A DNA stretch of 64,000 nt from Adineta ricciae (lineage: Eukaryota > Rotifera > Eurotatoria > Adinetida > Adinetidae), in contig CAJNOJ010000025.1 of assembly GCA_905250025.1 (NCBI GenBank), positions 211,132 through 275,131 of the forward strand. Direction: 5' to 3'. The position numbers and the translations under genes are program-made. The number at the start of each line of letters is the position of its first letter. Position 1 is the first letter of the stretch. Of this stretch, positions 40,550-49,241 are shown piece after piece. The notes below the pieces were generated by a model. The model saw only the letters and a program-made list of their open reading frames with translations. It had not been told where the DNA came from and did not search any database.

Positions 40550-41766
40550 ATGCCGACTAAGATTGAGAATTTAATACTATTTATTCTACTTGTAGGGCTA
40601 ATTTCCAATACAATGATGGTATCGCATATTTGGTGAGTTTTGTACAACTGAATACATTGACATCTTCATTATTTATTTCTACTCACAGGTTTGGTATTTT
40701 AATCTTGCTGAGTGTTGTGAAAAGTATGAAATCATCATCGATAGAAGTTATTGGACATCGTGGTGCATCTGGTTATCTTCCAGAACATACATTACCTTGC
40801 AAAGCTCTTGCTTATGGTCAAGGTGTTGACTATCTCGAACAAGATGTTGCTCTATCAAAGGATAATGTACCTATTGTCATTCATGATATTTATTTGGACG
40901 AAATCAGTGATGTGGCTAGTGTATTTCCTGGACGTAATCGCTCAGATGGTCGTTTTTATTTAATTGATTTTACATTGGCAGAAATCAAGCAATTACGCGC
41001 TAGCGAACGTTTCAATCATCAAACAGGCAATCCAATATACCCAAATCGTTTCCCTCTTCATCAATCAACATTTCATTTGGTTACTCTAGCTGAAGAACTC
41101 GAATTTATTGCTGGCCTCAATAAAGCTAATCTCGATAACAAACGACAAGTAGGTGCTTATGTCGAAATTAAAAATCCTTCGTTTCATGCCATGGAAGATC
41201 ATCGCAACATGAGTGAGATTGTTCTTGAAGTTTTACGAAAATACAACTATTCAAAACGGTCCGACAATATTTATTTACAATGTTTCGATATAGATGAGTT
41301 AAAACGTATTCGTTCAGAGTTACGATCGGATTTGAAACTTGTTGCCCTCCTAACGGATAATAGAGAACGAGATGAATACAGTAAAACTGATTATACATAT
41401 TGGACAAGTCGGATTGGTATGGCCAATCTATCAACATTCGTTGATGCAATTGGTCCACATTACGCACAGTTGTATGAACAAGGCAATACTTTACAACCGT
41501 CGGAATTATATTACGAAGCACGAAAGCATAAATTACTCATTCATCCATATACATTTCGTAGTGACGTTGTCCCGTCATTATTTGCCACATTTGATGTTAT
41601 GTTACAATTTTTCCTTGATATTTTACGAATTGATGGATTATTTACTGATCAACCGGATCGAGTTATTCGATATATTGAATCAACACAAAAATTGAACAAA
41701 GCAGTCAAATTTCATAGTTTCTCTTTTGGTATTTTTATTTTGTCCATTGCATTAATAACATTATGA
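40550..41766 (+). CDS. Bacterial-type glycerophosphodiester phosphodiesterase (GlpQ-like), copy 1
   Basis: GlpQ enzymes hydrolyse deacylated phospholipids to glycerol-3-phosphate and an alcohol. One 56 bp intron (40633-40688) leaves 386 residues in frame. After a hydrophobic N-terminus the enzyme begins GHRGASGYLPEHTLPCKA, almost word for word the E. coli periplasmic GlpQ start. Other matches are YLEQDVALSKDNVPIVIHD, FPGRNRSDGRFYLIDFTL, YLQCFDIDELKRI, and LLIHPYTFRSD. The catalytic His-Arg, the calcium-binding Glu and Asp, and the second His are all present. The C-terminus adds a hydrophobic tail (FHSFSFGIFILSIALITL), absent from bacterial GlpQ, that could be a GPI-anchor signal or membrane helix. 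Animal GDE proteins are much less similar, so bacterial origin with a gained intron is likely. A paralogue lies at 48.1 kb. AATAAA follows at 41789-41794. Confidence 0.93.
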
Positions 41767-42093: not shown

Positions 42094-44950
42094 ATGTATC
42101 GGCGAAAGAAAGAAGTTCCAAAGATAGATATAAGAGTGTATAGGATCATCATTGCGATAAACTATACTTATCATCTGTTAAATATGAATAATTTTATTAA
42201 ACGATCGATCAGTATTCAAAACAAGGAATGGAATTTAGTTACTCAAATGAAGTTAATGAATAACAATAAGCAATTTAAGAAAGCACTTCGATTATTCGAT
42301 GAACAGACGAGTGATGACAAGAATATGAAGAAAATATCCAGTTTAGTCTTTACACAAGTTTTGAAATCATGTGCTGGATTACCGGATTTTCAGCGTGGAA
42401 TAACGATTCATCGTATTGTTTCAAATCGATTGGACAAAGATTCGTATTTGTTAACATCTCTAATACACTTCTACAGTAAATATTCAAAAGAAAAAGAAAT
42501 TGTTGAATGTTAGGTTTCTTGCTTTCAAAGTGCAATGTAATCAAGTAACGAAAGCTGAAGAGTTATTTCGAATGTCAAAGGAGAAGACTTTACCCATGTT
42601 CGGTTCCCTTATGAAGGGTAAATATGATATAAAACCTTTGATTTCATACAAAATTAACTATATTCGATGTCAGGTTATCTCACAAATCATCAAGCAAGTA
42701 AAGTTATTGAATTATATGATCAAATTGAACATCCTGATGAAACAATATATGTTCTCGCATTGAATGCATGCGCTCAGCTAAAAACCGAGCAAGCATTAGC
42801 ACTAACAAAACGAATTTTTCACAATATTCAAGATAAACTTCAATCAAGTTCTTATCTTTCAACATCGTTGCTGGATGCATTAGCCAAGTGTGGCGATATA
42901 GCAGAAGCAGAAAGATTATTTCAGTCATTAGAAAAGAAGATCTTACCGATGTATGGTGCCTTGATGAAAGGTGATAAAGGAAAGAAAATTTTATCTCTTC
43001 ATGAAAAGAAAATTTTCTTTAGGATATATCGAGAATCAAATGGAACAAAAAGCTGTTGAACTTTTCAAAGAGATCGACAACCCAAGTGACAGCGTTTTGA
43101 ATCTGTTCTTTAACGCATGTGCTCAATTGAAGACGGACGAAGTGTTGACTGTGATTAAGAAATATTTGAAAGAGAATTCAAAATTACTCAGTTCAGATTT
43201 TCGTGTTTTAACATCATTGCTGGATGCATTGGTTAAATGTAGAGATCTAAATTATGCGGAGAATTTATTTAATCGGTTATCAAAGAAAACTTCATCAATG
43301 TATAAAGTTATGATTAATGCGTATCTAAAAGAGAATGACTCGTTTAAAATATTAAATTTATTTTCTGATATGAAATTGAATCATATTGAAATTGATCATA
43401 TCATTTGGACTTCTATCGTAAGCGGTGTAGCTCATATTGGCGATTCTGAATTGTCCCAATCAATTGCTGCACAAATCCCTGAATCTTGCTTGATTGATGG
43501 TCAAATACATAATACATTGATTCATATGTGGGTAAGCTAAGAAACAAAATTATGATTTTTTGCCAGTAGTCTATTTCATTTTTCAATAAATAGGGAAAGA
43601 GTGGTTGTGTTGAGCAAGCAGAGGAAATTTTCAAAAAACTTTCTCAACCAAGTACTATTGGATATGCAGCAATGAGTAAGTGTTAATGAGTCTTTTTAAA
43701 ACTGTCAGAAAATATTTTATTCAATAGTTAATGCTTATGGTTTAAATGGAAAAGGTTCACAAGCAATTGAACTCTATGAACAAATTCCTGATAGATTCAT
43801 CAACGAAGTCACTTATATTTGTATTTTGAATGCATGCTCGCATAGTGGACTTGTTGATAAAGCTGTCTCGATTTTTGAGAAAATTGAAATGAAAACCGAG
43901 AGAATATATACGGTTATGGTAAAACAAAATCTACATACAGTTTCGAAGGATTCTCATGATTTTCTCTATAGATTGATTGTCTAAGTCGATCGTTTTTTCA
44001 CATGGAAGCTCAACAATTAATCAATGAATATGAATCGTCTAATTTACCTTCGGCACCTATGTATTGTAAATATTATTGCATGAAAATATTCATTTTTCTT
44101 ATATGTAATTCAAGAAAAATGTATATTTTATCATGAAAAACTCGAAACGTACATATTGATATTCACATTTCAATAGAATATACTTCTTTCTACGAATGCA
44201 AAATTCGCATATACGTTATTTCTCTTTAGTGGCATTGTTGTCGGGTGTTCGAAACGCAAAAAATCATCATTTATCGCAAGAAATTTTCAATCGTATGAGA
44301 AAGATTTTCCCTCAATTATCAGATCCGATAACATCAGCTGCGATTCTTCTTGCTAACGTTTATGGATCCGTTGGTGATTTCGAGAAAGTATCAGACATTA
44401 GAGATGAGCTAAATCGATCCGGTATGAAGAAAAAAATTGGTCTCACATGGACTGTCATCGATGGAAATATTTACGTAAGTTAGAATAATACCTTTTTCGA
44501 CTACGAAATCTATCATTGCTTGTAGAAATTTCGAGCACATGATCAATCTCATCATCGATCTAGAGAAATTTATAATGAAATTGAAAATATCTCAAATGAA
44601 CTTGTACAACACGGGCACCAGTACAATGCTAGTTGGATCACACGACCAATTAATCAAGATGAAACAGTTGCATCAGTACTTTGCGGACATAGCGAGAGAC
44701 TTGCAATCGCTTGGAACTTTGTTTTAAAACCAAATACGTCGCGTATTCAATTAACGGAAAATCTGCGCATATGTGGAGATTGTCGTAAGTTATTACGTGA
44801 ATTATTTTCTTGGAAATCGTCTTTCTCTTTGCAGACAACGCAATAAAACTCATTGCTAAGATTCGTCAATGCGAAATTGTTGCGCGTGATACAAATAGAA
44901 TTCATCATTTTTTCAAAAATGGCCAATGCTCATGCAGTGACTTCTTCTGA
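42094..44950 (+). CDS. PLS-class pentatricopeptide repeat protein with E and DYW domains
   Basis: Plant-type PPR-DYW proteins bind organellar RNA through the repeats and convert C to U with the DYW cytidine deaminase domain. About ten exons give some 730-760 residues. Repeats include ALAKCGDIAEAERLFQSLEKK, KAVELFKEIDNPSDSV, NACAQLKTDEVL and NACSHSGLVDKAVSIFEKI. The E/E+ region reads LALLSGVRNAKNHHL, ILLANVYGSVGDFEKV, and GMKKKIGLTWTVIDG. The DYW domain has the deaminase zinc ligands HSE (GHSERLAIAW) and CGDCH (NLRICGDCHNAIK), then VARDTNRIHHFF and CSCSDFF-stop; the final tripeptide is DFF in place of DYW. The start may be ATG 42094 or ATG 42184 (MNNFIKRSISIQ, a plausible mitochondrial presequence). 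One intron (44066-44229) is 164 bp; the others are near 50. DYW proteins are known from bdelloids and a few protists; origin by transfer is inference. Confidence 0.92.
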
Positions 44951-48071: not shown

Positions 48072-49241
48072 ATGATGGTATTTCAGTTGTGTTTCAGTGT
48101 CCTACTGTTTTGCTGTACTTTGAATAATGTTCAGAGTGCGTTTCGACCATTGGTGGTCGGTCATCGTGGTACAGCTTATCTACCTGAACTGACTCTGGCT
48201 GCACAAGCTATGGGCTATGCATACGGCGCAGATATGGTTGAAATCGATGTTTGTCTCAGTCAAGACGACCAACTAATTGTTATTCACGGTAGGAGTTTCG
48301 TGAAGCGTAAGCAGTAGTTGTCCGTATGTATTTATATTCGAATAGATATCTATTTGGATGCAATCAGTAATGTCGCTGAGATGTATCCTGGTCGAAATCG
48401 ATCCGATGGTCTTCATTATGTGATTGATTTTACTCTTGAAGAACTGCATCGTCTGAGTATTCATGAACGTACAATACCATTCAATGGTACTCAACGCTTT
48501 CCATCGCGATTTCCATCAAATGCAAACGTTACTTTTCGTCTTGCGACTCTAAATGAATCAATTGAGTTATTACTGGGTCTCAATCAGGCAACTCGACGAC
48601 GACGTGAACTTCTTATCGAAATTAAGAAACCTGAATATCATAGTCAGCATAACAAATCTATCTCATCGATTGTGTTAGCAACATTGAATGCATATAACTT
48701 AACAAAGTTTACTGACCCTGTCATCATTCAGACATTTCACATTGAAGAATTAGTTCATATTCGCCGAAATCTTCACAGTGAATTACGTTTATTTGCGTTG
48801 ATGGTTTGGAATCGTATCAATGAATCATCGAGTGACTACGATTTTTATCGAAGTAGAGAAGGTATCGGAAACATCTCGAGCGTTGTTCAAGCGATTGCGC
48901 CTTTCTATGAATTTCTGGTCAATTTTGATTCCCATGGTGCACTGTTAGGTGTGACTAACTTGACAACATGGGCGCATGACTATGGTCTTGCAGTTTACCC
49001 CTTTACATTTCGACGTGATCTATTTCCTGGTCAAAATTTTGAAGAATTTCTTGATTATTTCTGGCACACAGTTGATGTTGATGGTTTTATAACTGACCAT
49101 CCTGATGTTATTCTTCGATATTTGGATAAAAAACCAGCATTTAGTGTATCATCATCAATATACGCATCGTATACAACATTTCTTTTCATTCTTTCAGTCG
49201 TAACAAAAATTTGGTTTTGTAATGAACCGATACTTGTATGA
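48072..49241 (+). CDS. Bacterial-type glycerophosphodiester phosphodiesterase (GlpQ-like), copy 2
   Basis: A diverged paralogue of the gene at 40.5 kb. One 57 bp intron (48289-48345) leaves 370 residues in frame. A clear signal peptide (MMVFQLCFSVLLFCCTLNNVQS) precedes GHRGTAYLPELTLAAQA; catalytic His-Arg, the metal-binding EIDV and the second His in LIVIHD are kept. MYPGRNRSDGLHYVIDFTLE matches copy 1, and VYPFTFRRDLFPGQ corresponds to its HPYTFRSD. The PEHT of GlpQ and copy 1 is PELT here. A hydrophobic C-terminal tail (ASYTTFLFILSVVTKIW) again suggests membrane or GPI attachment. The intron falls at VIHD, a different place from the copy 1 intron, so the introns were gained or lost separately. 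Likely extracellular, releasing glycerol-3-phosphate from phospholipid head groups. Confidence 0.92.

Follow-up and report, generated by a model that had tools for sequence, protein, structure and literature searches.

Can a plant-type RNA editing factor be at work in an animal? The question is raised by a gene of the bdelloid rotifer Adineta ricciae that lies in a 64,000 nucleotide stretch of contig C25 (the window), part of a surveyed genome whose 1033 contigs amount to 130.5 Mb. The gene is real and intact. It occupies positions 42094-44950 of the + strand, as the preliminary description had claimed, and splicing yields ten exons at 42184 (or 42094)-42475, 42531-42617, 42674-42970, 43023-43531, 43594-43675, 43728-43918, 43972-44065, 44230-44474, 44526-44784 and 44835-44950. 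They are separated by nine GT-AG introns, where about ten had been proposed; eight are 50-62 bp long and one is 164 bp. The open frame encodes 753 amino acids from 42094 and 723 from the methionine at 42184 (MNNFIKRS...). P0002, an A. ricciae protein of 723 aa, is identical to it letter for letter from this second in-frame methionine, residue 31 of the longer frame, so that 42184 is the more likely start and 42184-44950 the coding sequence up to the stop. The in-frame upstream extension at 42094-42183, part of the gene as first described, has no counterpart in the deposited protein and is probably 5' UTR. By eye, the surrounding open frames look like what we take to be ordinary animal genes, and contamination is therefore unlikely. 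The two frames flanking the gene (40567-41766 and 48318-49241) are related and resemble, in our judgement, glycerophosphodiester phosphodiesterases.

Pfam searches and home-made motif models support the view that the gene encodes a PLS-class PPR-DYW protein, and the identity, PLS array and E motif originally assigned to it all hold. On the + strand, a PLS-type PPR array ending in P2-L2-S2 (42226-44052; Pfam PPR, 6.9e-44) is followed by E1-E2 motifs (44053-44441, including the intron at 44066-44229; Pfam E_motif, 4.1e-7, 30.6 bits against a cut-off of 27.3). A PG-box/E+-like stretch comes next (44469-44603, including the intron at 44475-44525); its Pfam Eplus_motif match is weak, at 18 bits against a cut-off of 24, and the same stretch aligns with PDB entries 9kfx and 7o4e. 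The DYW deaminase domain (44613-44950) matches Pfam DYW_deaminase at 2.4e-30, covering positions 1-92 of the 93 in the profile. Among PDB entries, the protein as a whole is closest to 9kfx, in which a synthetic PPR-DYW protein is bound to its target RNA (E 2.5e-29). The motif models read P0002 as P-S-P-L-S-P-L-S-P-L-S-P-L-S-E1-E2, the first L not being scored, and PLS triplets followed by E1 and E2 are also found in the commonest patterns among the best 120 of 886 relatives. The product ends in SDFF, that is in DFF rather than DYW, and the family consensus ends in DYF. An exact C-terminal D-Y-W tripeptide is, in our judgement, not considered necessary for membership of the PLS class.

Both zinc-ligand motifs of the deaminase site are intact, as had been noted. 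HSE (44688-44696) presumably supplies the zinc-ligand histidine and the catalytic glutamate, and CGDC (44772-44783) the zinc-ligand cysteines. The last intron (44785-44834, 50 bp) lies within the deaminase domain and splits the histidine codon that follows CGDC, so the complete CGDCH is present only after splicing. In an alignment that took in 48 of the 120 listed proteins, the deaminase histidine, glutamate and second cysteine are invariant and the first cysteine is conserved in at least 90%. A pattern search found both HxE(R/K)L and CxDC in 111 of these 120 proteins, the best of 886. The AlphaFold2 model of the protein has a mean pLDDT of 92.0 and a pTM of 0.80. Ahead of the array, residues encoded at 42184-42225 (+; MNNFIKRSISIQNK) form a possible mitochondrial presequence that is basic and, by crude measures, weakly amphipathic. 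Over the first 30 residues, P0002 carries 5 K+R and 1 D+E with a muH of 0.43, and the N-termini of P0003 and P0006 are similar in charge and muH, all measured without a control.

The gene belongs to a large family. A PF14432 profile search of the A. ricciae genome returned 127 matches, which merge within 1 kb into 81 DYW loci on 48 contigs, several contigs carrying three to six copies each. The domain is near-complete at 60 of the 81 loci and partial at 21; these counts are lower bounds, and alleles, homoeologues and pseudogenes may be among the loci. All of the best 120 of 886 relatives carry Adineta or Rotaria names. Among those listed, the closest over the last 254 residues are from A. steineri (83% identity) and Rotaria magnacalcarata (70%). 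For a test of selection we used 26 deaminase exon segments from 20 regions and the window, out of the 81 loci. Twenty-four are free of stops and two contain an in-frame stop, and across the 37 pairs whose dS lies between 0.02 and 0.9 the median dN/dS is 0.12. The recent copies examined are under purifying selection and are kept by it. The description of a working, domesticated gene thus stands in its first part, given the intact site, the fold and the dN/dS; a lone domesticated gene it is not, given 81 DYW loci. The in-frame stops and partial domains are what would be expected if the loci were decaying remnants of gene transfer and the mitochondrial signal described below an artefact of nuclear copies, translation table or sequence error. 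We regard this reading as highly improbable, since the low dN/dS and the close relatives in A. steineri and Rotaria speak against it.

Individual copies differ in structure. At L096 (C45), L094/L095 (C170) and L097 (C371) the whole DYW domain is matched without a stop or frame break, and the intra-domain intron is therefore apparently absent. These copies are possibly an older form of the family; the one on C45 is more divergent, with 45% identity to the window's gene in the deaminase exon. L107 (C288) and L109 (C237) are near-identical and have a common in-frame stop at the Trp of an SWITRP stretch, and thus perhaps represent a duplicated pseudogene.

The A. ricciae mtDNA forms the end of contig C55 (464485-478188; L011-L013). 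A single N precedes it at the point where it has been attached to nuclear sequence, and its two ends carry the same sequence; the junction is probably a misassembly of a circular molecule. Translation table 5 gives twelve long frames, assigned by eye, and comparison confirmed cox1, cob, nad1, cox3, cox2, nad5 and nad4. C is rare, with 892 among 13,688 bases overall and 49 among 3,441 at the third codon position. When 71 non-synonymous C's were scored in cob, codons 356, 273 and 17 stood apart and the rest fell below zero. Editing of codon 356 (CTT) would give the Phe found in 76/76 bdelloid rows and 33/34 other animals, editing of codon 273 (TCT) the Phe found in 89% and 88%, and editing of codon 17 (TCA) the Leu found in 70/70 and 21%, respectively. 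Among 138 non-synonymous C's scored in cox1, codon 381 (CTT) stands out, its edited form being the Phe of 13/16 bdelloid rows and 104/104 other animals. On C55 the candidate C's lie at 471045 (cob codon 17), 471813 (cob 273), 472061 (cob 356) and 467334 (cox1 381). Codons 116 and 488 of cox1 score above zero and are ambiguous; at codon 116 (TCA), which was set aside, 79% of other animals have Leu but bdelloids are mixed.

Two further positions were set aside: the Ser of PR[S]RYD in nad1 is encoded by AGA and not by TCN, and position 384 of cox1, where the other listed animals have Val, reads Ala in 16/16 bdelloid rows and was excluded from the count. No strong sites were seen in nad1, nad4, nad5, cox2 or cox3 when these were compared by eye with distant PDB relatives. 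tRNA and Rfam scans of the mtDNA stretches gave nothing bearing on editing. Scanning viral contigs with cob brought up no relative, and 80 loci from a scan of genome contigs, titled as bacteria, were set aside.

If transcripts were edited, bdelloid mitochondrial genes at large would be expected to carry C where the protein needs U. We counted radical T>C-type changes (F/S, L/S, L/P and Y/H at conserved columns), each of which C-to-U editing would undo. Among the 207 cob deviations of the 81 bdelloid rows, 61 are of this kind; among the 86 of the 34 other animals there is 1. This amounts to 58.6 against 2.2 per 10,000 cells, at like overall deviation (199 and 193 per 10,000 cells). In cox1 they make up 16 of 97 deviations for the 17 bdelloid rows, against 7 of 346 for the 104 others (33.4 against 2.4 per 10,000 cells), with overall deviation differing at 202 and 119. 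Stricter columns give 35/144 against 0/64 for cob and 15/65 against 7/260 for cox1. A>G types, used as a control, are somewhat commoner in bdelloid rows (25.0 against 13.5 per 10,000 cells in cob, 14.6 against 9.6 in cox1), yet far less skewed. The p-values of the radical T>C comparison, 6e-10 and 6e-7, are overstated and not strict, because the rows share ancestry and the other animals were taken from the closest among the matches listed. Of the 81 bdelloid cob rows, one comes from the A. ricciae genome and seven from GenBank records with a species name; the other 73 were assigned by similarity, as were 15 of the 17 cox1 rows. P0195, P0198, P0201, P0203 and P0204, which are partial or divergent, were dropped from the cob counts, and P0221 is in neither group.

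The artefact reading introduced above could point here to the mtDNA joined to nuclear sequence on C55 and to metagenome rows apparently read with table 4. The main count omitted outcomes R and I/M, which a wrong translation table might mimic, and the same types of change occur in GenBank records of A. vaga (candidate sites at cob codons 127, 219 and 273), Philodina citrina (cob codons 274 and 280) and one Macrotrachela (cob) and of Rotaria rotatoria (cox1), both of which tell against it. Counted separately, W>R at conserved Trp is seen in 5 of the 232 cox1 cells from bdelloids and in 0 of the 1,456 from other animals, where an R read with table 4 may be AGR, and in 1 of 644 against 0 of 272 cells in cob, the one being in P0195, restored for this count only.

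Thirty-four of the 81 cob rows have at least one radical residue and 47 have none; none is found in Habrotrocha constricta, Rotaria rotatoria or two of the three Macrotrachela records, and L274S appears in one of the three Macrotrachela quadricornifera records. On a tree of 70 cob rows built without the candidate sites, codon 274 changes 16 times for 18 rows of C type, codon 273 7 times for 7, codon 280 8 for 12, codon 148 4 for 7 and codon 219 4 for 6. Editing would permit a site to flip between T and C although the protein calls for T. The Rotaria rotatoria GenBank COX1 (P0241) has Y22H, I249T, F381L and L414S at nearly fixed positions, all reversible by C-to-U change. There are many candidate sites in the bdelloid-like rows P0253, P0245 and P0255 (cox1) and P0188 (cob), and P0253 has W28R, W292R and W344R; P0188 and P0255, both on contigs with a length of 14330, may come from one genome.

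Most of the cob signal sits at codons 269-281, the PEWY region at the quinol site. The stretch PEWYFLFAYCILR is nearly fixed in other animals; bdelloid rows vary in it mostly by F/S, L/S, L/P and Y/H, with L, R and G forms rarer. In yeast, serine changes in this region of cob give inhibitor resistance. The clustering would fit a reading in which the DYW proteins are non-editing RNA-binding or processing factors and the mtDNA has changed in an ordinary or adaptive way, for example by Q-site resistance to natural cytochrome b inhibitors. We hold this to be improbable, as the changes in the region are of T>C type and include Y272H within PEWY itself, and as further changes lie beyond the motif and in cox1, where W292 and W344 show W>R. 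Without residues 269-282 the cob signal is weaker, with radical T>C types at 19/160 against 1/78 (p 0.003). Taken together, the mtDNA comparison, a comparison of gene sequences, supports putative C-to-U editing in bdelloids.

Which transcript the window's gene might act on was sought through the PPR code. The preliminary description had proposed a prediction from residues 5 and last; carried out with a code table of our own, it placed the five candidate sites at ranks 112, 317, 83, 533 and 489 of 841 C's, none better than 83rd. The residue pairs read STT PGD LVS STI PGS LND STT and, continuing along the array, PKD LTD SNS PAN LIT STS; as residue 5, the later P motifs have G twice, then K and A. 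They are nearly identical in the A. steineri relative, and the two proteins therefore probably share a target. Among 13 A. ricciae proteins scanned with the same table, the best was P0076, which ranks cob codon 356 second of 841, a rank that is not significant over the 65 protein-site pairs.

The top-scoring mtDNA C for the window's gene, C55:475218, belongs to no protein gene and lies in the interval from nad5 to cox2. This position, the presence of 81 loci against about four strong candidate sites in two mtDNA genes, and the contigs with three to six copies would all suit a family that edits or binds other RNAs (nuclear, cytosolic, transposon, or mitochondrial tRNA or rRNA), mitochondrial mRNA editing being minor or the work of few members. 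We consider this unlikely, though the most credible of the alternatives. The residue pairs of the 120 listed proteins largely fit the RNA code, with much Gly at P-motif residue 5. An arms race would predict unusual diversity at residues 5 and last, but their entropy gives no sign of it (some L motifs being set one residue late), and six members have basic, mildly amphipathic N-termini, measured without a control.

We favor, with a probability of about 0.68, the explanation that the gene is a working member of the PPR-DYW family, probably mitochondrial, which binds transcripts through its PPR array and deaminates C to U. It belongs to a large bdelloid family for which a spread through gene transfer has been suggested in print. 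Its product would probably enter the mitochondria, as the weak presequence hints, its PPR array would bind one or a few transcripts and its DYW domain would deaminate a nearby C to U. In bdelloid mitochondrial genes, C appears to stand at positions where the protein calls for U, the pattern that edited transcripts would leave; the DYW family would do the editing, and the window's member may edit a mitochondrial site. On the DNA evidence, C-to-U editing by the DYW family probably takes place in bdelloid mitochondria. That there is a full plant-type system, with about 80 PPR-DYW genes editing mitochondrial transcripts at sites that vary between and within species and on which cob and COX1 residues depend, seems to us likely.

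To our knowledge, such a plant-type organelle editing system would be the first in animals. If true, it would stand as a rare instance of gene transfer supplying an RNA-processing system that then expanded and became essential, and published bdelloid mitochondrial protein sequences, barcoding COX1 included, would be wrong at some sites. The question left open since rotifer DYW proteins were noted is reduced to four named codons. Bdelloid mitochondrial coding sequences in PMC3426538 derive in part from cDNA of clonal cultures, A. ricciae among them. Judged by its listings, the open-access literature holds no report of rotifer RNA editing that we could find.

DYW proteins of Adineta ricciae and Philodina roseola are already in print (PMC4202320, citing Schallenberg-Rudinger et al. 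2013), and those bdelloid proteins belong to the same family as the window's gene, the A. ricciae ones also to the same species. Within the open-access literature searched, the genome-wide count, the selection test and the mitochondrial signature appear to be new. The rotifer proteins resemble those of Naegleria, Acrasis and Physarum as part of a scattered non-plant DYW family; the same paper describes lineage-specific expansion in Acrasis and Naegleria, a grouping of Naegleria with rotifer sequences, and mitochondrial C-to-U editing in Acrasis, for which 12 DYW ORFs are named (PMC4202320). Unlike Acrasis, as portrayed there, the present case has an animal host, 81 loci rather than 12 ORFs, and editing predicted from DNA alone. 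Unlike land-plant factors, the rotifer gene is nuclear in an animal, has compact introns, a DFF end and an E+ match under cut-off, and its P motifs often have Gly at residue 5. In architecture it is like the land-plant PLS-DYW editing factors (for example At3g63370, PDB 7o4e), with PLS triplets, E1-E2, a putative PG-box-like stretch and an HxE/CxxC deaminase whose DYW domain matches 7o4e at E 4.5e-31.
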